DNA from: Fodinibius sp. Rm-B-1B1-1
GTDB taxonomy: Bacteria > Bacteroidota > Rhodothermia > Balneolales > Balneolaceae
DNA length: 64,000 nucleotides
Assembly (NCBI RefSeq): GCF_038594945.1
Contig: NZ_JBCFYD010000001.1
Coordinates: 310,001 to 374,000 of the forward strand
Direction of reading: 5' to 3'
The position numbers were made by a program, and so were the translations under genes. A model generated the notes under the pieces. The model was given only the letters and a program-made list of their open reading frames with translations, made no database searches and had not been told where the DNA came from. Positions 28,884 to 50,744 of this stretch are shown here, piece by piece. The stretch's first letter is position 1, and the number at the start of each line of letters is the position of its first letter.

Positions 28884-29072
28884 TTAGTTGAATATTTAGA
28901 ATTGAAATTCATAGATGATCAAAAATTTGCACCCATTTGGTCTCCACTTGATTTTAGTTTGCGAATAAGCAGCTGACTATTTGAGTTACAAAAACAACAA
29001 AAAAGATAAATGTTTCAACATTTTCTACGCCTGTTAATGCTAAAACTTATTTGCCCGTTGGTTTAAATAAAA

Positions 29073-29100
29073 AAGCCCGCAAGCTTTCACCTGCGGGCTT
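29073..29100 (-). terminator. Terminator after first susD
   Basis: AAGCCCGCA and TGCGGGCTT pair perfectly around a 10-base loop. Read on the minus strand the stem runs into an uninterrupted T stretch. It separates the SusCD pair from the barrel and lipoprotein genes. Confidence 0.85.
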
Positions 29101-29128
29101 AAGATCTACGAAAAAAATATGCTGGAAT

Positions 29129-30463
29129 TTATATTTCAGGATTTTCTGGTGTATTTGGATTGTTCTGACGCTCTGATGTAGGATATGGATAGTATACTCT
29201 ATTACGTTCTGCACTCAGAGCCGGATCGCTGGATGGAACCGGACGTCCCAGGCGACGTGCATCTTCAAAACGCATACCAGTAAGATACATTTCTGCGCTA
29301 CGCTGACGATAGATTTCCTCAAACAACTCAGGATCACTTGTTCCACCACTATAAGCAGGCAGATTAGCACCTACACCAAAAGCATCCTGTGACGGCTGCT
29401 TCGTGCGAATATTGTCAATCTCAGTGACAGCATCACCCGGCCGATTTAGGTTCACGTATGCTTCAGCACGAATCAGGTTCATTTCTCCGGGCAAATATAC
29501 CGGGATAGGATCGCTGGCACTCGTAAAGAATCCTTCTACTTCATCAATCGGAAGCCCATTCGGCGTGCTCTGGGCATTATCCGGACTAAGGTAGAAATCT
29601 AACCGCGCATCCCCGGCTTCTGTTACTGGAGTTCCAAAGTTATCACGCGGAGCATATTCCTGACCTTCATCACCAAAAGCAATGTTGTCAAAAATAGGAT
29701 TCCGTGTTGTAGAACCGTCAAAGCTAAAGACAGACGTTGCCGACATATCCACATCGTTAGATGCATCAATTGCTTGCTGGTAATTACCAGCAAGCAAATT
29801 ATATCGTGCCTGCATGGCATAAATCGTATTTTCCAGATCGAACCCTGAAAGCAGTATATTGCTTTCAAAATCAGCAGAAGGTGGTTCCTGAGTTATACGA
29901 TCACGCGCACTCTTAAGCAAGCGAAGAACTTCGGCCAGTACCTCTGAACGAGAGTGGAATGCCACCTCTTCACTCGTCTCAATAGGCGCCTGTTCAAAAG
30001 ACTGAATTAAATAACCAAGTGCCATAGCCCGGTAAAGTTCAGCAGTTGCCATAATCCCACTGAGTTCAGCTTCATCTATGATAACATCAGGTGCATTATC
30101 AATGATCTGTCCAGTCATACTAACTGTTCTGAGCAAACCATCCCAGATACTGTTCGTACGACTATTTTCCGGAGGCAGTGCCGTCCCACCCTCTTCCAGT
30201 TCGACGAGACTCGAAAAAGTAGTATTAATAGCTAATTCTCGTGTGGTAACACCGGTATTTAGTACTACATCGGGATAAGCATTCTCCGAGTAATAGCCTT
30301 GTACTCCTATAGTGAAAGAGCGGACTCCTTCCTGCTTAGATAGTACATCTTCTTCCGTAGCAGCGTTTGGATTCGTCATATTCAAATCACAACCTACTAC
30401 CATTACTATAACTGTAATTAAAAGTAGTTTCGTAAAGACAAATTTATTTTTGAATGTATTCAT
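29129..30463 (-). CDS. SusD/RagB-family nutrient-uptake lipoprotein (first)
   Basis: A surface glycan- or nutrient-binding lipoprotein that forms the lid of a SusC channel. The lipobox VIVMVVGCDLN is followed by tetratricopeptide-like helices, including ELYRAMALGYLIQSFEQAP, and the typical late RAEAYVNLNRPGDAVTEIDNIR. The end (LTGMRFEDARRLGRP, then YPYPTSER) also fits SusD. The 444-residue length is short but within the SusD range. It starts 22 bases after its susC gene. No glycosidase is linked, so the ligand is not predictable and might be a peptide or a small molecule. Confidence 0.88.
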   Translation of the reverse strand: MNTFKNKFVFTKLLLITVIVMVVGCDLNMTNPNAATEEDVLSKQEGVRSFTIGVQGYYSENAYPDVVLNTGVTTRELAINTTFSSLVELEEGGTALPPENSRTNSIWDGLLRTVSMTGQIIDNAPDVIIDEAELSGIMATAELYRAMALGYLIQSFEQAPIETSEEVAFHSRSEVLAEVLRLLKSARDRITQEPPSADFESNILLSGFDLENTIYAMQARYNLLAGNYQQAIDASNDVDMSATSVFSFDGSTTRNPIFDNIAFGDEGQEYAPRDNFGTPVTEAGDARLDFYLSPDNAQSTPNGLPIDEVEGFFTSASDPIPVYLPGEMNLIRAEAYVNLNRPGDAVTEIDNIRTKQPSQDAFGVGANLPAYSGGTSDPELFEEIYRQRSAEMYLTGMRFEDARRLGRPVPSSDPALSAERNRVYYPYPTSERQNNPNTPENPEI

Positions 30464-30485
30464 AATCTATCTGATTTCCGTCTGT

Positions 30486-33431
30486 TTAAAATTTTGCAGT
30501 AACTCCAAAAATGAAGCTTCTCGGAATAGGCACTTGTACAAAATCGAATCCCCGTACAGCAGTGCGTTGACCGGCAACATTTGTTTCAGGGTCGTATCCT
30601 GTATAGCTATCTATGGAAAACAGATTACGTCCTGCTAGACTTAGTTTAAGACTCTTCATGCCAAAAGCATTGAGCTTTGAAGTATATGAAACGGACAGCT
30701 CACGAAGTTTGAGATAAGAACCGTCTTCTACCCACTTCTCAAAGATTCCAAACACGCGGCTGTTATAACCAGCGGGTAGATCGCCCTCGAGTTCACGTTC
30801 ATAAATTTCCATCGTACCAAAAGCTCCTAGCGCTCCTAATCGACGTGTAAAGTTGAACACATCGTTACCGTAGGACGCATCAAATTGAGTATGGACGTTC
30901 CAGTTTCCCCCAATATTGATGTCATTAATCCATGAAGCAACCCAATCAGGATTGGGATCGCCAATAATTTGATCACCTTCGGCTTCAAGCGGCAATCCAT
31001 TAGAATCTGTCTCAATATTACCTTCACTGTCACGCTTAAAGGCATCACTGTAAAACACGCCTAAAGGCTCACCATTAATGGCAGCAACCTGTCCGAAGGA
31101 TTCAGGTATAATTAACGTACCACCTTCTACACCCTGAATTTCATTCTCGTTGGCAGAGAATGTTAATGAAGAAGTCCACTGTAGATTTTGCTTATTAATT
31201 GGCACCCCCTTAACCAACAGCTCGATACCAGTGTTATCTAACTCACCGAAGTTACCCAGCTTGGTAGAAAAACCGGTTGATGGTGCTGCAGTTCGAAACA
31301 AGAGAAGATCTTCGGTCTTCTGCTTATACCAAGTAAACTCAACAGTTAGACGATCAGAAAGGAAGTTGGCATCTACACCCAGCTCGAGCTCTGTTTGACG
31401 TTCCGGCTTTACATCAACAGCTCCACGCTGCGACGAAGGCAACATAGCACTTCTACCGTTTATAGAAGTAGGATTGAAGAGGTTAAAACGATCAAAGGCT
31501 CCAATAGCGGTCTGACCTCCAGAAACACCCAGCGATGCACGGAGCTTAAAACTGGTGACGATATCAGAAAGTCCAAAATCATCCCAGAAGTTTTCTTCTG
31601 AAACCACGTAAGAACTACTGACCTTGGGAAAAAACTGCCAACGTTCGCTCTTGCCGAAGACAGAAGAAGCATCAAACCGACCGGCCCCTGTTACAAAAAG
31701 ACGGTCTTTATAACCAAATGTCTGCTGACCAAATATTCCGTAAATAACCGTCTTACTTCTAAATTCTCCTGGTTGTTCAAAGTTAGCGCCCCCAGAAACA
31801 ACTCGAGAACCTATACTAAACTGTTGTGCTTCCAAACCAATTGTTTCAACATTTTCATACTGCAGAGTACCGCCAAATAACGTGCTGGAATTTAACCATG
31901 GTTTGATATCTGTCTGGTAGCTTATTCTCAGATCATTATTTAATTGGAAAAACGCCCGCTCTGATCGACGACCAAAGCCAGTTGATAAGCCCGGGGCAGA
32001 AGTACCGGCCGGAATAAAGGCAGTTCCTACTTGAGAGTAAGTATCTAAACCTAACGTATGGTCTATAGATAATCCCTTGTGAGGTGTTAATGATAACTTA
32101 GCGTTACCAATAACACGGTTAACTTCATTTTGGAAATCGTAGGTATCAATTACTTCCAGGGGATTTGCCAAAACTGTGTTATTGGGATATTCTCCTGTCT
32201 CAGGATCCGGTTTGGGATTAAACGTATTAGGTCCAAAAATAAATCCAGTTAGGGCCCCATAAGAAGCATTCAAACCTCCATTGGGAATCTGCTGATTATT
32301 ACTGTGGGAATAACTCAGACTAGTTGAAAGATTCGCCCAATTTGTCAATACCTGGTCTAGATTCAGACGTGCTGTAGAACGCTGGTAATTGGAACCGTCG
32401 ACGATACCTTCATTATTTTTATGAGAACCTGAAATATAATAACGGGTGTCATTTGCTCCACCAGAAATAGACAGAAATTGGTTGGTCCCAACGGCAGTCC
32501 TGAAGATATAATCCTGAAAATCATATCGCTTACCAGACATTACGTTGCCGCTGTTGTCCAGGTATTCTCCATTTTCATTTTGTGCCATATTAACATCCAG
32601 AGTCTTACGAACCTTGTCAACATTGACGGTTGACTTGATAGTTATCGAAGGCTTCCCAGATTTACCTTGTTTTGTGAAAATCTGAACAACTCCATTGTTA
32701 GCTTGCGATCCATAAAGAGCAGCAGCGGCGGCTCCTTTAACAACCTCAATGCGGTCTATATCTTCTGGATTTAAATCTGCAAGACGATTTGTAGAAGTAC
32801 CTCCTACATCAACTAATTCAGGAGAATCATTGTTTACAATCACTCCATCCACAATGTAGAGCGGGCTTGCACTACCAAGAAGAGTACCTGTCCCACGTAG
32901 TCGAACACTAATTCCACCTGCGGGATCACCAGAGTTTTGCTGCACAAGTGCACCAGCAATTTTGCCTGATAGTCCTGCATCAATTTCGGTAACTCCCGGA
33001 GAAGCCAATTCATCAGCACTTACTGTAGAAATAGAGTTACCCAACTGACGTTTCTCTGTCAAAACTGAAGCACCAGTTACAACTACTTCCTCCGCTCCAA
33101 TAACATCCTGCTGGAGTGCAATGGTACCCAAGGCAATTTCCTGCTCATCCCCGAACTCAATCTCACGCTGGACCGTCCGATATCCGATAAAAGTCATGCG
33201 CAAATTATAGGTTCCGGGCTCAAGTCTTGCTGTAAGTTCAAAATTTCCGTCTACATCAGCAGAGGTACCGATGGTGGTATTTTCAATACTTACATTAGCT
33301 CCCGTTAAGGGGTCTTCAGTGCGTTGGTCTATCAGCGTACCTGTAACAGTGTACTCTACATTTTGTGCTTGCAAAGCAAACGGCAAAAGTAGTAGACAGA
33401 TAAACGATAGTAATCGTATCCGGTATGTCAT
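30486..33431 (-). CDS. SusC/RagA-family TonB-linked outer-membrane channel (first)
   Basis: A TonB-dependent importer of 981 residues. The order is signal peptide (ending LQAQ, about residue 23), carboxypeptidase-regulatory-like domain (about 27-110), plug domain (about 125-235, with LYIVDGVIVNND and KGAAAAALYGSQANNG), then a large barrel ending FIFGVTAKF. This is a standard SusC design. It is followed after 22 bases by susD. On the minus strand a TAACTTTG sequence at 33476-33483, 45-52 bases before the start, matches the Bacteroidota -7 promoter box TAnnTTTG. No catabolic enzymes are nearby, so the cargo is unknown. Confidence 0.9.
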   Translation of the reverse strand: MTYRIRLLSFICLLLLPFALQAQNVEYTVTGTLIDQRTEDPLTGANVSIENTTIGTSADVDGNFELTARLEPGTYNLRMTFIGYRTVQREIEFGDEQEIALGTIALQQDVIGAEEVVVTGASVLTEKRQLGNSISTVSADELASPGVTEIDAGLSGKIAGALVQQNSGDPAGGISVRLRGTGTLLGSASPLYIVDGVIVNNDSPELVDVGGTSTNRLADLNPEDIDRIEVVKGAAAAALYGSQANNGVVQIFTKQGKSGKPSITIKSTVNVDKVRKTLDVNMAQNENGEYLDNSGNVMSGKRYDFQDYIFRTAVGTNQFLSISGGANDTRYYISGSHKNNEGIVDGSNYQRSTARLNLDQVLTNWANLSTSLSYSHSNNQQIPNGGLNASYGALTGFIFGPNTFNPKPDPETGEYPNNTVLANPLEVIDTYDFQNEVNRVIGNAKLSLTPHKGLSIDHTLGLDTYSQVGTAFIPAGTSAPGLSTGFGRRSERAFFQLNNDLRISYQTDIKPWLNSSTLFGGTLQYENVETIGLEAQQFSIGSRVVSGGANFEQPGEFRSKTVIYGIFGQQTFGYKDRLFVTGAGRFDASSVFGKSERWQFFPKVSSSYVVSEENFWDDFGLSDIVTSFKLRASLGVSGGQTAIGAFDRFNLFNPTSINGRSAMLPSSQRGAVDVKPERQTELELGVDANFLSDRLTVEFTWYKQKTEDLLLFRTAAPSTGFSTKLGNFGELDNTGIELLVKGVPINKQNLQWTSSLTFSANENEIQGVEGGTLIIPESFGQVAAINGEPLGVFYSDAFKRDSEGNIETDSNGLPLEAEGDQIIGDPNPDWVASWINDINIGGNWNVHTQFDASYGNDVFNFTRRLGALGAFGTMEIYERELEGDLPAGYNSRVFGIFEKWVEDGSYLKLRELSVSYTSKLNAFGMKSLKLSLAGRNLFSIDSYTGYDPETNVAGQRTAVRGFDFVQVPIPRSFIFGVTAKF

Positions 33432-33507: not shown

Positions 33508-34088
33508 TTATTGCGAGAAGGTCAACGTCTGTATTCGATCCCACATATTGGAATCCTCCGGACCTAATCACCATACTAAGATACCGCGAAATCTATACTC
33601 TTCAAGAAGCTTAAGTTTAGGTTCTATAGATCATGTATTTTCTATAAATGCATACTGTCATGATTCCGTAATGCGTAGTAACACTGCTGTTCATCCAACC
33701 AAATAAGCTCAGCATCATAGCGTTCTGCCAATCCTATAACCTTCTTATAGGAGGCTCCTCGTCCATTCACAAATCCACCTTGGCATTCATTATAGTCGGC
33801 AAACCAGTAATTGGAATAAAAGGGAATCCCATCTATATTTTTCTCTTCAGCAATATCGATCACCCGGCTGCCAACCTCTCCCCATAATACACCAATTGGG
33901 AAAATAAAATAGGTTTGGGGCGCTACAATCGAAATGTAATCGTTGTTGGACTTAAAATTCTCAAAAAAGTCCTCGGTATCAACGTAATAGAAAAGATTTT
34001 CGGATTGGCCCTGTGCTTTTACAGCCGTGAAACCAGATAGTAAAAATCCGACTACAACAATAAAAACTAATCGTTTGGTACCAACCAT
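33508..34088 (-). pseudogene. GH18-family glycosidase remnant (internal deletion, frameshift, stop codons)
   Basis: The start (ATG 34088, signal peptide ending VKAQG) and the next segment (ENLFYYVDTEDFFENF, ISIVAPQTYF, WGEVGSRVIDIAEEKN) look like a GH18 N-terminus. The text then jumps at about 33834-33840 straight to the late GH18 part (GIPFYSNYW, then GLAERYDAELIWLDEQQ). The catalytic DxxDxDxE region is missing. The frame stops at 33642. In another frame the C-terminus continues as AFIENT, stop, SIEPKLKLLEEYRFRGILVW, stop, LGPEDSNMWDRI. The defects are thus a deletion, a frameshift and two in-frame stops. It lies downstream of the serine hydrolase gene, where an intact GH18 would fit a muropeptide or chitin operon. 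Confidence 0.85.
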
Positions 34089-34184
34089 AATTTCATGTCC
34101 CATATACCATAGCCCTCCCAGTAGGTTAACAAAATGTCCTTCTACTAACCTACTAAAAAAATATGAAACCCCATATAAATGCAC

Positions 34185-35417
34185 CTATTTTTTATTTTGC
34201 CATACCGTATCAAAAATAGCTTGTCGCAGGGAACCTAAATCAAAGTAAGTACCACCTTCTTGGCGGCCTACATGCTGGCGGTTGGTGAGTAAAATAATGG
34301 AGAGCGAATCTTGTGGAACAACTACAATATTAGTCCCCGTAAAACCGGTGTGTCCAAAGGTATCATCGGGACTCCCTTTTGCTGCGATAGTTCCTTTTTC
34401 CATCGCCCAACCCAATCCATTTCCATAGGCATCTTTGGTCAGAAATGTATCAATAACAGGTTTTGAAATAATTTGCTGATCTTTATAGATCCCATCATTT
34501 ATCAACAGATCAACCAAAACCTGCAGATTTTCAATGGTCGAAAACAATCCCGCATGTCCTGCTATACCACCATTGGCATACCAGGCATTACCATCGTTGA
34601 CTTCACCCCGAAGTGTATATTCCCGCCACTTATTCCACGAGTCGGGATCAACATCCACTGTGTAACCAAATTCCTCGTCATGCACCATTCGTTTTTCAAA
34701 GGGATTTCCGTGCGAAGTCGCTACTACCTTTTTGTATTGTTTTTCGAGTGGGTTGAAGGTTGTATATTGCAGGTTTAAAGGTTGATACAATTTCTCTTGC
34801 AAATACATATCAAACCGCTGACCGGAAATCTGTTCTATAATATCCCCCAATAACATAAAGCCCAGATCGCTGTAATGACGTTCATGGCCTACATCCCATT
34901 TTAGCGGTAACTGGGCTATATATTCATACCGTTCCTTGGGATTTTCGGCGTGATAATAGGTAGGCAGCCACTGGGCTAATCCCGAACTGTGCGTTAGTAA
35001 ATGCCGAATAGTGATGTTCGACTTCTTGCCCTCATTAAATTCCAAGAAGTATTTGCCAACTGGGTCATCCAGAGAAAGCATACCCTCATCAACCAGTTTC
35101 ATGATTCCAAAAGTAGTAGCCATCACTTTGGTTAATGACGCCAGGTCGAAAAGGTGATCGGTTGTCATCGGCTCCGGATTTTCGAGCAGCTGTAAATCGT
35201 AGTCATATTTTTGAGCGTATCCATAAGCCGCGCGATGCAACACTGAATCACCCTGCTTTACCTGTATCACTGCTCCGGGGATGTGATCGGCTTCGACCTC
35301 TTTCTGAATCAGGCTATCGATAGCTGGAATCTGACCTGACTCCGGCGATTTGATTTCGGGCTGGCCCGAACAACCAAAAAATACTGTTAGTATGATTGCA
35401 GCAAATAGTTTATGCAT
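34185..35417 (-). CDS. Class-C beta-lactamase-like serine hydrolase (lipoprotein)
   Basis: A penicillin-binding-protein-like hydrolase, probably an esterase or a peptidoglycan carboxypeptidase rather than a true beta-lactamase. I use ATG 35417 because it opens a lipoprotein signal, MHKLFAAIILTVFFGC, with Cys16. The upstream in-frame codon lies in a hairpin. Catalytic motifs are SLTK (Ser94, Lys97), a Tyr motif in HYSDLGF, and HTG in FGHTGFTG. It lies 66 bases after the symporter gene and 97 bases before the GH18 remnant. In Bacteroidota, hydrolases of this class are often found with amino-sugar and anhydro-MurNAc genes, as here. The substrate is not established. Confidence 0.87.
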   Translation of the reverse strand: MHKLFAAIILTVFFGCSGQPEIKSPESGQIPAIDSLIQKEVEADHIPGAVIQVKQGDSVLHRAAYGYAQKYDYDLQLLENPEPMTTDHLFDLASLTKVMATTFGIMKLVDEGMLSLDDPVGKYFLEFNEGKKSNITIRHLLTHSSGLAQWLPTYYHAENPKERYEYIAQLPLKWDVGHERHYSDLGFMLLGDIIEQISGQRFDMYLQEKLYQPLNLQYTTFNPLEKQYKKVVATSHGNPFEKRMVHDEEFGYTVDVDPDSWNKWREYTLRGEVNDGNAWYANGGIAGHAGLFSTIENLQVLVDLLINDGIYKDQQIISKPVIDTFLTKDAYGNGLGWAMEKGTIAAKGSPDDTFGHTGFTGTNIVVVPQDSLSIILLTNRQHVGRQEGGTYFDLGSLRQAIFDTVWQNKK

Positions 35418-35429
35418 CGTAAGAATATA

Positions 35430-35464
35430 GGATCCCAAAACTTTAATTAGAAGTTTCGGGATCC
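35430..35464 (-). terminator. Hairpin between symporter and serine hydrolase genes
   Basis: GGATCCCAAAACTT (35430-35443) pairs with AAGTTTCGGGATCC (35451-35464) over 14 bp with one mismatch. The T-run on the minus strand is weak, so it could be a partial terminator or a transcript-stabilising stem. Confidence 0.5.
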
Positions 35465-43258: not shown

Positions 43259-45841
43259 TTATTTATTGATAATAACTGTTCGACCACCGCGCCCATCAGA
43301 ACTAAACGTGCGTATTTTAATGACCGGATCTCCTTCCAACACTACAGGATCAGTATATTCATTCGAATCAACAGAAGGCTTACTCCCATCCAGTGTGTAA
43401 CGGATGGTCAATCCCGGAAAAGCTGAATTGGCTTTAAGCGTATCACTTTCAATAACAGCTCCGGGTGGTGGCAGTCGATATTTCATCCCATTATGAAAAT
43501 AATCCATTCGCAGTAATTCTCGCTGACCAAGCCGGTTAGCGAACTCATTCCAATCTTTGCTCATTGCTTTTTTTCGATGATTGTGATCAACAATAGTTGC
43601 CCAATCCGGCTGCTGTGCCCAAGCGCGTTCGGCAAGACCAAACAATCGAGGCATTACCATGTATTCCATCCGGTCAGCACTTATTAATTTTTCACTCCAA
43701 AGCTGTCCCTGTAATCCTAAAATATTCTCGCGTCCTTCTTCGGTTAATTTTGTTGCATCCTCAAAAGCATCGTCAGGAATGGGGTTACCCATTACGTTTT
43801 GTTCGGCATTTTTATAAAGATCAAACGGGATAAATTCGTAAGGATACTGTGATCTCACAAATCCAGCCCAGTAGAGTCCAGGCTCTTGGGGATGGTTATT
43901 GTAGGCCAGATCAAAATAGAAATTTGAAGCCTGCGACATCACCACCTCATACCCATTGTTTGCAAGCTTGTACGCGTGATCTTCGGTACCACTTCCCCAA
44001 ATATTTGCCCATACATAAGGCTGTACTTTCCCGGCAAACTCTGGATCGGGCTTGGAACCGTCATCCCCTTCATCAAGTGCAATTTCTTCCCAGCCGGCCA
44101 TTGTCAGCCCACGTTCAGCTAACAGCTTTCGGATACGCTCAAAAAAGTAATCCGGCAGGTCATCCACATTATCCAAGTCATCATCATTTTCAATCAAATC
44201 ATTACAAGCCGGAGATTTCTCCCACGCTCCATGCGGCACTTCGTCACCGCCCATATGGATGGTAGATAACGGGGCCCCAGCCTCGGCATACATATCTATA
44301 ATTTCATCAATAACCGTCTCCATGAAGCGATAGGTTGAAGCCTGACACACGTTGATGACATTGTCATCCCAGTTTTGCACTGATCGATATTGCGAGCTAT
44401 CCTCCGGCTCGTGCAAGCGATAACGATTAGCTTTCCCAATTTTATCTTCGGATTTATACTGCTCATACCGCGATTTCATTGCCACTATAGCCGCCCGGGC
44501 ATGCCCCGGCACATCAATTTCGGGCATGACCTCAATATGACGTTCCGCCGCATATCGGAGTAGCTCTACAAATGTTTCCCGATCATATGAACCGCTGCCC
44601 GGTGATTTTTCCGGATTGGGACCAGAACCATAAGACGGTATTATGTGCTCCTGCTCTTCGGTCGTATGTCCACGCCGCCCTCCAATCTCGGTCAACTCAG
44701 GCAAAGATTCTACGGGCAAGCGCCATCCTTCATCATCGGTAAGATGAAAGTGGAAAGTATTTAGTTTATAAAACGCCATAACATCCAACAGCTTTTTTAC
44801 TGTAGCTGCGGACTGGAAATTCCGAGCGACATCTAAATGGAGGCCCCGATAGCTAAAACGCGGCTCATCTTTAATAGTTTGCGCATCCAATTCAATCAAA
44901 GATACCGGCGTTTGGTATGTCTTAGGAGGAAGCAATCCACGAAGGCTCTGAATACCATAGAAAATTCCCGATTTATCGGCTCCCGAAATTGTTATCTGTT
45001 CGGATGTAATAGACAATTCATACGCTTCTGACTGCTGAACATCCGAATCCAAGAGCAAAGCAATATCATTCTTTGAAGATATTCCCTCAATAGTTTTCAC
45101 CTCTCCATTAAACACCTTTGAAAGTTCATTTGACAAAAACTGAGCCTCTTTTTTCAACTCAGGCTGGTATCCAATACCAATAGACTTTGCTAATTTAAAT
45201 GTACCAGTACCCTGTTTTATAGATGTAGGTGTTGGTATGATTTGTCCAATCTTGTCAACAGGCATGTGAGTAAGCGAGGCATTCTTTTTGAATCGCCACT
45301 CAGCATTAGGAATAGACATATTGTCACCAGGCCCCCGCTTTAGCTGCTCTTCATCGGTAAATGGCAGGACTTTAGCATTTGATATAGAAATCGTTTCTTC
45401 ACTTGCATGATCTACAAAATATAACCCCGCCGGGGCATCTCCTTCTTTTATTTTAGATCCGGGAGCTTCAAAAGGTATAGTAAATTCTTCACCAGGAGAA
45501 ATGCCATTAAAATGATCGGTAGGCTCCAGCTTATAGAAATCCCCATTTATCAATGATATATCCACTTCTGATGGCACTGTTTCCTTGTCAATAACACCTA
45601 AATAATTAAAATAAAAAGTCCAGCCCGCATTCGGCAACGGTTCATCACCATTGTTTTTAAAAGTAAGCAAAGCTCGGTAACGAGCACCATCATCCAGAAA
45701 GTTGGTTTCTACTTTCCAAGTGACAGACACTTTGGACAGAACAGTAATTTTCTCAGTAGAATCAGGGGCTGATTGTGCAAAGCAATTGCCGACAATTATT
45801 ACACTTATTGCTATGAGACAGTAAAATAATCTAAATTTCAT
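43259..45841 (-). CDS. GH20 beta-N-acetylhexosaminidase (chitobiase type)
   Basis: This enzyme removes terminal beta-linked GlcNAc from chito-oligosaccharides. After a signal peptide (1-22, ending CFAQ) come a CHB_HEX carbohydrate-binding domain (about 35-190), a GH20b domain (about 205-330), the GH20 barrel (about 333-740, starting YRGLHLDVARNFQ) and a C-terminal CHB_HEX_C domain (about 785-855). The catalytic pair Asp533-Glu534 lies in HMGGDEVPHGAW. The four-domain order is that of Serratia-type chitobiase and differs from short NagZ-like enzymes. It is the last gene after susC and susD, 100 bases downstream of susD across a hairpin. Location is periplasmic or surface. Confidence 0.93.
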   Translation of the reverse strand: MKFRLFYCLIAISVIIVGNCFAQSAPDSTEKITVLSKVSVTWKVETNFLDDGARYRALLTFKNNGDEPLPNAGWTFYFNYLGVIDKETVPSEVDISLINGDFYKLEPTDHFNGISPGEEFTIPFEAPGSKIKEGDAPAGLYFVDHASEETISISNAKVLPFTDEEQLKRGPGDNMSIPNAEWRFKKNASLTHMPVDKIGQIIPTPTSIKQGTGTFKLAKSIGIGYQPELKKEAQFLSNELSKVFNGEVKTIEGISSKNDIALLLDSDVQQSEAYELSITSEQITISGADKSGIFYGIQSLRGLLPPKTYQTPVSLIELDAQTIKDEPRFSYRGLHLDVARNFQSAATVKKLLDVMAFYKLNTFHFHLTDDEGWRLPVESLPELTEIGGRRGHTTEEQEHIIPSYGSGPNPEKSPGSGSYDRETFVELLRYAAERHIEVMPEIDVPGHARAAIVAMKSRYEQYKSEDKIGKANRYRLHEPEDSSQYRSVQNWDDNVINVCQASTYRFMETVIDEIIDMYAEAGAPLSTIHMGGDEVPHGAWEKSPACNDLIENDDDLDNVDDLPDYFFERIRKLLAERGLTMAGWEEIALDEGDDGSKPDPEFAGKVQPYVWANIWGSGTEDHAYKLANNGYEVVMSQASNFYFDLAYNNHPQEPGLYWAGFVRSQYPYEFIPFDLYKNAEQNVMGNPIPDDAFEDATKLTEEGRENILGLQGQLWSEKLISADRMEYMVMPRLFGLAERAWAQQPDWATIVDHNHRKKAMSKDWNEFANRLGQRELLRMDYFHNGMKYRLPPPGAVIESDTLKANSAFPGLTIRYTLDGSKPSVDSNEYTDPVVLEGDPVIKIRTFSSDGRGGRTVIINK

Positions 45842-47570: not shown

Positions 47571-50500
47571 TTAAAATCCGAGGTTAATACTGAATCCGTA
47601 TGAGCGTGCCCCCGGGACACCGGCCAATTCCAGACCCTGAGCATTATTTCTGTTAATGGAAGATTCCGGATCGACATTTGGCACTGAATCATAGATATAA
47701 AACAAATTACGACCGGTAGCTGAAATACTTGCTGATCTGACCGGAATCTGGGCGATCAGAGATTGTGGCAATTGATAGCTTATCTGAAGCTGACGAAGCT
47801 TAATGAAGTTCGCATCGTGTACAAACTCCTCAGTTATATTATTGCCGATTTCGGTGTAATAGGCCGAAGGAAGCACCGCTGTTTCATTAGGTCCTCCATC
47901 GATGTCAACTCCATCGGCTACAAAACAAGGAGAATAAGGAGCACCAGCCTCATCACACTCTGAACGACCTTCCAAAGTATTTTCATGAAGTCCTGCACCA
48001 TAAGCATAGGAATTAGTCCCTGTATAAAGTTGTCTGCCCCAATTCACATCTATGAGGGCACTGAGACTTATGTTTTTATAGGAGATCGTATTATTCCATC
48101 CAAGAGTCCAGTCCGGAGTACCCTTACCAAGTATGGTTTGTTCTTCGGCCTGAACCGGAAGGCCATTCTCATGTACAATGTTTCCATTTTCATCACGCAT
48201 ATATTCATAGCCTCTTATTGTGCCATACTCCTCACCGACAGTGGCAGTAATACCTGCATTCTGTGTTCGGCTCTCTGCCAGAAGCAACGTTTCTTGTTCT
48301 CCGGCAAGAGCTACAACCTTGCTCTTGTTTTGAGAGTAATTAAATCCAGTTTCCCAGAACAGATCACCCGAAGTGAATGGAACGCCCTCCAGCAATACTT
48401 CAAACCCTGTATTGTCCAGACGACCAGCATTGATAACCCGGCTGCCATATCCTGTAGTATTAGATACAGTTGTTGACAAAATCTGATCAATGGTTTGCCT
48501 GTCATACCAGGTAAAATCGACATTGAGCCGATCATCAAAGAAACGTAGATCAAGTCCCACCTCAACCTCTTCTGTCGAAGTTGGTTTTAAGTCAGCCAAA
48601 GGTATCGCATCCTGAGAAATTGTTGCCGCTGACTGTCCTTGATGGGTAAAATCCAAAATGCCATAAGTTAGATTCAATTGATAAGGGCCCGTATCACTTC
48701 CAACCTCAGCCCAGGAAGCTCGTACTTTACCGAAGCTCAACCATGAAGGCATATTTGAAGAAAATGCTTCGGAGAAAACAAAACTGGTACTAAAAGAAGG
48801 ATAAAAGAATGCGTTTTCATCCTCGGGAAGTGTTGAAGACCAGTCATTTCGTCCTGTCACCGTAAAGAACAGATAATCATTATAAGAAAACTCTGCCGAA
48901 CCGTAGACCGAATTAATTTGTCTTTCTGAGAAATCATAAGTAGGAGATATATTTGCCATATTAGAAATGGTTCTCAGCTTGGGTACTTTAAACGTACTTC
49001 CAAAAACTCCTACCGTCTCATTTCTCTTATAACTTCTGGTCCCTCCCAAGGATGCATCGACTGCAATAGACGAGGTAAGTTCCTTATTGATATTTAAAAT
49101 AACATCGGTAGTGCTCTCCATAACCCGATATTCATTCTCACTCATATCACCATTCGGTCGATATGCCGTTCCCCAAGGGGTAAGGCTTGTCCGACGGAGT
49201 GTATACCAGTCAAGACCGGTACGTGCATTTAAAGAAACCCAATCTGCTATATCGTACTGAAGATTTACGTGCCCAATGATCCGATCTTTTGTATCATCAG
49301 TATCGAACTGATTGGTCACCCAATAGGGATTATTTACAAAAGTATTCGCATTTTGGAATACCCCTTCAGTTCCATCCTCATTTATATAATTATCCTCGAG
49401 AGCGCTCATACTAATATTGGGCGGCAATATTGCTGCTGCAAAATTAGCGTTACCCGGGCTATCAGAAAGCCAAGGCCGATTGTTAGCGGTTTCATTAACG
49501 TAATTGGCTTTTACATCTGCCTCAAATTTTCCTAATGAATGTGTACCACGCAATGTGACGGAACTACGTTCGAGTCCAGAATTAGGAACAACATTATCAG
49601 CATTCTGATAAGTAGATGAAAAATAATACGTTGAGCTCTCATTTCCTCCTGAAAGTGAGAGCGTACTTTTACTGGAAAGACCTGTACGATAAAAGTTATC
49701 AAGTCGGTTGCCCTGATCTTTGTACGCCCGTTCCTGACCGTCGAATTGTATAACTGGAGATCCATCCAGAGGTGCTCCCCAACTACTTAGCCCAGTAGCC
49801 AGAGCCTCATCTTGGTTTTGGGGTTTTTGCCCCAGATTACCTTGCCCATACTCATCTTGATAATCAGTAAAACCAACAAGAGGATCTTCAATAGTGAGTG
49901 TGCTCTTAAAATTTACGATAGGCCCTTGACTTAGACCCTGACCAGATTTTGTAGTAATCTGAACGACCCCATCTCGAGCCCGCGTACCATAAAGTGCGGC
50001 AGCACTGGCTCCCTTTAATACACTAATATTTTCAATGTCTTCAGAATTGATTTGTGAGATACCATCTCCACCGTCAAAACCACCCCAAATATTGGCAGAA
50101 CCTAAATTTGAATTATCGATGGGCATACCATCAACAATATAAAGTGGTTGGTTATTACCAGCCAGCGATGATGCGCCTCGAATTGTTACCCGAGAAGCTG
50201 AACCTTGTCCCCCGGAAGTTGAACTTACATTAACACCCGCAATTTGTCCCTGTAATAAATTTGCAGTATTTAATTCTGTTGCAGAAACTAATTCTTCAGA
50301 ACTAACTTCGCTTACAGAATATCCCAGAGATTTGGATTGTCGCTCAAGTCCCAGGGCCGTGACAACCACATCATCAAGTGCCTCGGTCTGTTCTTCTAAT
50401 CGAACAGTCAACTCTGATTGACCACCGATGTTAATATCCTTAGAAGCAAACCCTATAAAACTAAATCGGAGTGTTGCTTCAGAGCTTGACACAAGTAAGG

Positions 50501-50744
50501 TAAACTCTCCTTCTGCATTTGTTGTCGTCCCCTGCTGAGTACCAACCTCAACAATGTTAACACCAGGCAACGGCTCTTCCGCATCGGCAGATAAAACGAC
50601 CCCCGAAACCGTAAAATCCTGTGCCTGAGCAGGTGATATACCACCTATTAATAAGAACACAAAACAGATCCCTCCCATAATAAACCGAGAGAACTTATTT
50701 TGCTTTATAAGAAGTGCAAACCAAGTATCATAACTCTTTTTCAT
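47571..50744 (-). CDS. SusC/RagA-family TonB-linked outer-membrane channel (second)
   Basis: A 1057-residue TonB-dependent oligosaccharide importer. The order is signal peptide (ending SPAQAQ, about 42), carboxypeptidase-regulatory-like domain (about 43-125), plug (about 135-250, with LYIVDGMPIDNS and KGASAAALYGTRARDG), and a barrel ending SYGFSINLGF. It heads the susC-susD-GH20 unit. A LacI-type operator lies about 245 bases upstream at 50989-51002. The predicted cargo is chito-oligosaccharide. Confidence 0.93.
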   Translation of the reverse strand: MKKSYDTWFALLIKQNKFSRFIMGGICFVFLLIGGISPAQAQDFTVSGVVLSADAEEPLPGVNIVEVGTQQGTTTNAEGEFTLLVSSSEATLRFSFIGFASKDINIGGQSELTVRLEEQTEALDDVVVTALGLERQSKSLGYSVSEVSSEELVSATELNTANLLQGQIAGVNVSSTSGGQGSASRVTIRGASSLAGNNQPLYIVDGMPIDNSNLGSANIWGGFDGGDGISQINSEDIENISVLKGASAAALYGTRARDGVVQITTKSGQGLSQGPIVNFKSTLTIEDPLVGFTDYQDEYGQGNLGQKPQNQDEALATGLSSWGAPLDGSPVIQFDGQERAYKDQGNRLDNFYRTGLSSKSTLSLSGGNESSTYYFSSTYQNADNVVPNSGLERSSVTLRGTHSLGKFEADVKANYVNETANNRPWLSDSPGNANFAAAILPPNISMSALEDNYINEDGTEGVFQNANTFVNNPYWVTNQFDTDDTKDRIIGHVNLQYDIADWVSLNARTGLDWYTLRRTSLTPWGTAYRPNGDMSENEYRVMESTTDVILNINKELTSSIAVDASLGGTRSYKRNETVGVFGSTFKVPKLRTISNMANISPTYDFSERQINSVYGSAEFSYNDYLFFTVTGRNDWSSTLPEDENAFFYPSFSTSFVFSEAFSSNMPSWLSFGKVRASWAEVGSDTGPYQLNLTYGILDFTHQGQSAATISQDAIPLADLKPTSTEEVEVGLDLRFFDDRLNVDFTWYDRQTIDQILSTTVSNTTGYGSRVINAGRLDNTGFEVLLEGVPFTSGDLFWETGFNYSQNKSKVVALAGEQETLLLAESRTQNAGITATVGEEYGTIRGYEYMRDENGNIVHENGLPVQAEEQTILGKGTPDWTLGWNNTISYKNISLSALIDVNWGRQLYTGTNSYAYGAGLHENTLEGRSECDEAGAPYSPCFVADGVDIDGGPNETAVLPSAYYTEIGNNITEEFVHDANFIKLRQLQISYQLPQSLIAQIPVRSASISATGRNLFYIYDSVPNVDPESSINRNNAQGLELAGVPGARSYGFSINLGF

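Follow-up and report, generated by a model that had tools for sequence, protein, structure and literature searches.

The segment 34103-33508 on the minus strand of the window (the whole stretch of 64,000 nucleotides of Fodinibius sp. Rm-B-1B1-1 that was analysed) is almost certainly a pseudogene, the remnant of a gene encoding a secreted GH18 hydrolase. An intact orthologue is found at the same place in relatives and disabling lesions are found in the remnant. Its product cannot act as the GH18 enzyme because strands 3-6, part of strand 7, strand 8 and the catalytic residues are missing. The lesions are given relative to the intact GH18 gene of Aliifodinibius salipaludis WN023 (genome G002), a species renamed Fodinibius salipaludis according to the title of PMC12260241. 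The features of the locus are the following.

33508..34103, minus strand: whole GH18 remnant, bounded by the likely ATG and the original-frame stop.
33642..34103, minus strand: open frame left over, 153 aa; it encodes the signal peptide and residues ~30-91 and 252-309 (G002 numbering).
33830..33831, minus strand: junction of an in-frame deletion of ~480 bp; residues 92-251 of G002 are gone.
33656..33657, minus strand: frameshifting deletion of 10 bp, from the comparison with G002.
33631..33633, minus strand: original-frame TGA stop at the place of R321 of G002, encoded there by CGA.
33568..33570, minus strand: original-frame TGA stop at the place of R342 of G002, encoded there by CGA.
34185..35438, minus strand: serine hydrolase (PF00144), intact upstream neighbour.
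30486..33431, minus strand: SusC/RagA-type outer-membrane protein, intact downstream neighbour.
29129..30463, minus strand: SusD-like protein, named from its place behind SusC.

The likely start of the remnant is the ATG at 34103; a GGGAGGG ends 9 nt upstream. The leftover frame of 153 codons closes with a TAG at 33644-33642; in a mechanical list of open reading frames, it begins at a GTG (34184) and has 180 aa. When translated, the minus strand gives a fragmented GH18 protein. Three collinear matches to a profile of the four intact homologues were found: 34067-33828 (E 3.1e-25), 33830-33648 (E 1.6e-26) and, in another frame and with two TGA inside, 33657-33514 (E 1.4e-11). The similarity is not due to chance, since the leftover frame matches the G002 protein by BLAST with E values of 8.1e-31 and 2.4e-28 (identity 64%). 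The Pfam GH18 model (PF00704) matches neither the leftover frame nor any place in the whole 3.41-Mb genome of the strain (zero matches), so that the GH18 identity of the remnant rests on its intact relatives. The remnant belongs to GH18 by descent: it is homologous to proteins of G002, G009 and G013 that score above the PF00704 cut-off. The single Pfam candidate on the remnant, Spore_YhaL (E 0.031), is under its own cut-off and was rejected.

The four lesions are independent and of different kinds; none is a homopolymer slip. An earlier note, made from the sequence, had described a GH18 protein in three pieces with a frameshift near 33655, two stops and no catalytic segment, and all of this was confirmed. 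The deletion that it had proposed was also found, in frame and of ~480 bp; its position had been given as 33834-33840 and is corrected to 33831/33830. The junction adjoins ATTCC in the remnant; the ends of the deleted segment in G002 carry ATTCC and ATACC. In a working GH18 enzyme, the (beta/alpha)8 barrel is complete and strand 4 bears the catalytic D-x-E. The general motif of the family is DxxDxDxE, of which the intact relatives retain only the D-x-E end. According to the G002 model, the large deletion removed strands 3-6, the start of strand 7 and the catalytic region (residues 134-140 and the segment GWQFDFE included), and the 10-bp deletion put strand 8 out of frame. GWQFDFE is invariant in the 21 aligned homologues, partly through the way in which these were selected, since it served as one of the two search patterns that found most of them.

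At the same locus, an intact GH18 gene (358-388 codons) is found between the serine hydrolase and SusC in G002, G009 (an uncultured Aliifodinibius) and G013 (a Balneolaceae MAG); the symporter lies beyond the serine hydrolase. The reading as a gene in decay, not a novel short gene, is therefore upheld by intact homologues in three relatives. These lie at the same place, as the earlier note had asked, beside the same serine hydrolase, symporter and SusC; they are shorter than its 450-550 residues. In A. salipaludis, the gene (L031:7571-8656, L064) has the locus and neighbours of the remnant. In G009, the GH18-SusC-SusD cassette is present twice in tandem (L032:7658-18732). Against PF00704 (cut-off, 29.6 bits), the four intact proteins reach 87-118 bits; NCBIfam gave 0 families for each of them. 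When 92 genomes of the family were searched with the four-homologue profile, 28 had a match: full-length in G002, G009 and G013, the remnant in the window genome, and in the other 24 only other proteins, matched weakly and in part (E 2.2e-11 at best). Homologues with the same short form, which the earlier note had named as evidence against decay, were found in none of the 91 other family genomes by this profile search, in which the species is represented by one genome.

Among the best 11 of the 27 other genomes that match the serine hydrolase at 1e-60 or better, GH18 is found beside it in three and SusC/SusD in four. In G011, open SusC and SusD genes lie beside the serine hydrolase without GH18; no GH18 match was found in the gap of ~450 bp between the serine hydrolase and SusC. 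The contig of G003 stops just past the serine hydrolase, where presence or absence of GH18 cannot be judged. Absence of GH18 is common: PF00704 genes, of whatever kind, are carried by only 14 of 38 relatives and, within the genus, by 6 of the 11 other genomes. That this neighbourhood generally accompanies GH18 genes was considered and rejected: in a comparison of 42 GH18 loci (tblastn, 1e-10), the serine hydrolase, SSS, NagB-like, SusC and SusD-like genes were found at the three Balneolaceae loci and at 0 of the 39 others, several of which are short. Relatives of this GH18 with ~29-34% identity are found in many Patescibacteria (Staskawiczbacteria and others; L076-L102), without the Balneolaceae neighbours.

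The other neighbours of the remnant are an SSF symporter and a protein matching NagX below the cut-off. AnmK (after the earlier note), NagB-like and SusD-like are provisional names for further neighbours; NCBIfam gave 0 families for the SusD-like protein. Shared stretches of SusC and SusD have 93% DNA identity between the window and G002 (NG86 dS, 0.25 and 0.29), versus 68-78% for the serine hydrolase, symporter and AnmK genes (NG86 dS above 2 or undefined). The block of high identity extends from about the SusC start codon to near 29065 (29065-33431 in the window). These differences in identity suggest that the SusC/SusD block was exchanged between the lineages after their split. The damage differs between the two genomes: in A. 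salipaludis, GH18 is whole and SusC and SusD are fused by a deletion, whereas in the window GH18 is broken and the SusC/SusD pair is open. In the fusion (L031:5262-7496, minus strand), SusC residue 587 is joined to SusD residue 280 in one frame of 744 aa, at a GTAACAG that the SusC and SusD genes of the window have in common. Behind the SusD end, a fragment of the symporter 3′ end is found (L031:4759-4949, minus strand), which may point to an ancient duplication or rearrangement in the cluster.

By its model and its similarities, the product of the intact gene is a predicted SleL/YaaH-type hydrolase that is secreted and has a (beta/alpha)8 barrel. The barrel of the G002 protein is modelled with confidence (mean pLDDT 90.5; 21 alignment rows). 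The SleL/YaaH cortex-lytic enzymes (GH18; PDB 4s3k, 4s3j) include the top sequence match of the intact-homologue profile (4s3k, E 1.4e-32) and give the top fold match of the G002 model (E 8.0e-31, TMq 0.80). They differ from the intact homologues in sequence (22-24% identity) and by the signal peptide that the latter carry; the active site is gone from the remnant. Bacterial GH18 chitinases (PDB 5jh8, 4wiw, 4q6t; 23-25% identity) match the intact homologue in sequence and fold nearly as well as SleL does. Judging from fold and neighbours, the likely substrate of the intact enzyme was an extracytoplasmic polymer containing GlcNAc, whose pieces SusC/SusD would have imported. A secreted GlcNAc-releasing enzyme would thus be the natural reading of the lost function. 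Release of amino sugars as such need not be lost, since the genome retains two GH3 genes that pass the cut-off, besides a third match under it, and one GH20 gene (43613-44857 in the window). The frame that contains the latter (860 aa; 43259-45841, minus strand) lies near a second SusC (47571-50744); GH20 is present in G009 and G013 and was not found in G002 and G011.

Loss of conserved residues is uneven along the remnant. The columns that are invariant in the four intact copies are altered in 2/26 cases for residues 32-90, 1/25 for residues 252-309 and 8/22 for residues 314-352, beyond the frameshift. In controls, each intact copy was compared with the columns invariant in the other three; the corresponding values are 3/29, 4/30, 4/30 and 8/34, then 2/27, 2/27, 5/30 and 8/33, then 0/22, 3/25, 2/24 and 1/23. 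Before the frameshift, the remnant has thus lost no more (3/51) than the intact copies; after it, the loss is 8/22 (Fisher p = 0.0021; 0.012 when the stop columns are left out). Of the columns with a conservation of at least 70% in 17 distant relatives, the remnant retains 10/11, 5/5 and 11/14 and the intact copies 9-10/11, 4-5/5 and 12-14/14. Against a profile of these 17 relatives, the mean scores of the remnant are 1.24, 0.78 and 2.23, versus 1.50-1.67, 0.95-1.02 and 2.41-2.73 for the four intact copies; the remnant scores lowest in all three regions, which points to mild decay throughout. Its branch in the protein tree (0.33) compares with 0.08 for G002, 0.35 for the intact G009b and 0.36 for the intact G013. 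The codon likelihood branch test is saturated, because the neutral branch lengths of the full model range from 0.7 to 9.9 substitutions per site; it gave no difference between regions (p = 0.63) and did not reject omega = 1 on the remnant branch, either for the part before the frameshift (p = 0.051) or for the part beyond it (p = 0.056). Unique changes at codon positions 1/2/3 (10/9/10 in the remnant versus 2/1/4 in G002) were dropped as a sign of lost constraint: the intact G009a gives a similar pattern (8/7/12 versus 2/2/9 in G002). The earlier note had called the loss recent. This is not sustained: synonymous sites are saturated, and the end beyond the frameshift already lacks 8 of 22 conserved residues.

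The unevenness of the two ends could mean that the C-terminal end lost constraint first and that the internal deletion is younger, or that the two ends have different histories. Continued use of the short frame is the least likely of the three readings. Different histories would be expected if part of the 3′ end came by recombination from another, already decayed copy, the two ends having then decayed for different times. Tandem cassettes such as those of G009, the uneven loss of conserved residues and the exchanged SusC/SusD block next door are consistent with such a mosaic origin. It is unlikely, as overall DNA identity of the remnant is highest to G002 in all three regions and no clear switch of nearest relative was found; the remnant would in any case still be a pseudogene.

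Retention of a shortened gene is less probable still. The product would be a secreted, non-catalytic protein of 153 aa that combines the N-terminal part with most of the GH18 insertion domain and may bind sugars for the neighbouring SusC/SusD importer; decay would be confined to the region beyond the frameshift. The large deletion does preserve the reading frame, no stop interrupts the part before the frameshift, a start, a ribosome-binding site and a signal peptide are present, and conserved columns are altered far less often before the frameshift than after it. However, the model of the leftover frame has no confident fold (mean pLDDT 41.8; 150 of 153 residues, five alignment rows), two conserved residues within the frame are substituted (W to R and D to G), and the profile score of this part is also under that of every intact copy. 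The regions behave alike in the (saturated) codon test, and the profile search showed the short form in none of the 91 other genomes of the family set. An error of sequencing or assembly, the gene being intact in the strain, is scarcely credible even though a single genome of the species is available: there are four lesions of different kinds, one of them spans ~480 bp, none is a homopolymer slip, conserved residues are altered in the same stretch and the flanking genes are open.

The pseudogene is thus the preferred reading. This lineage once carried a GH18-SusC-SusD cassette behind the serine hydrolase of the amino-sugar cluster, as in relatives. The in-frame loss of about 480 bp perhaps arose through slippage between short stretches of similar sequence; another loss, of 10 bp, shifted the frame, and two arginine codons became stops. 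This is ordinary gene loss, the decay of a gene of a known family. No report of this pseudogene was found in the literature consulted, although one may exist; in passages of PMC9909488, none of the words chitin, peptidoglycan, glycoside hydrolase and pseudogene occurs. Synteny makes the locus a clear example of gene decay, and it carries a caution: the leftover frame should not be annotated as a new short secreted protein. In a few Balneolaceae, the GH18-SusC-SusD cassette at the amino-sugar cluster is broken in different parts according to the lineage: GH18 in the window genome, the SusC/SusD pair in A. salipaludis and, in G011, GH18 absent beside open SusC/SusD genes.
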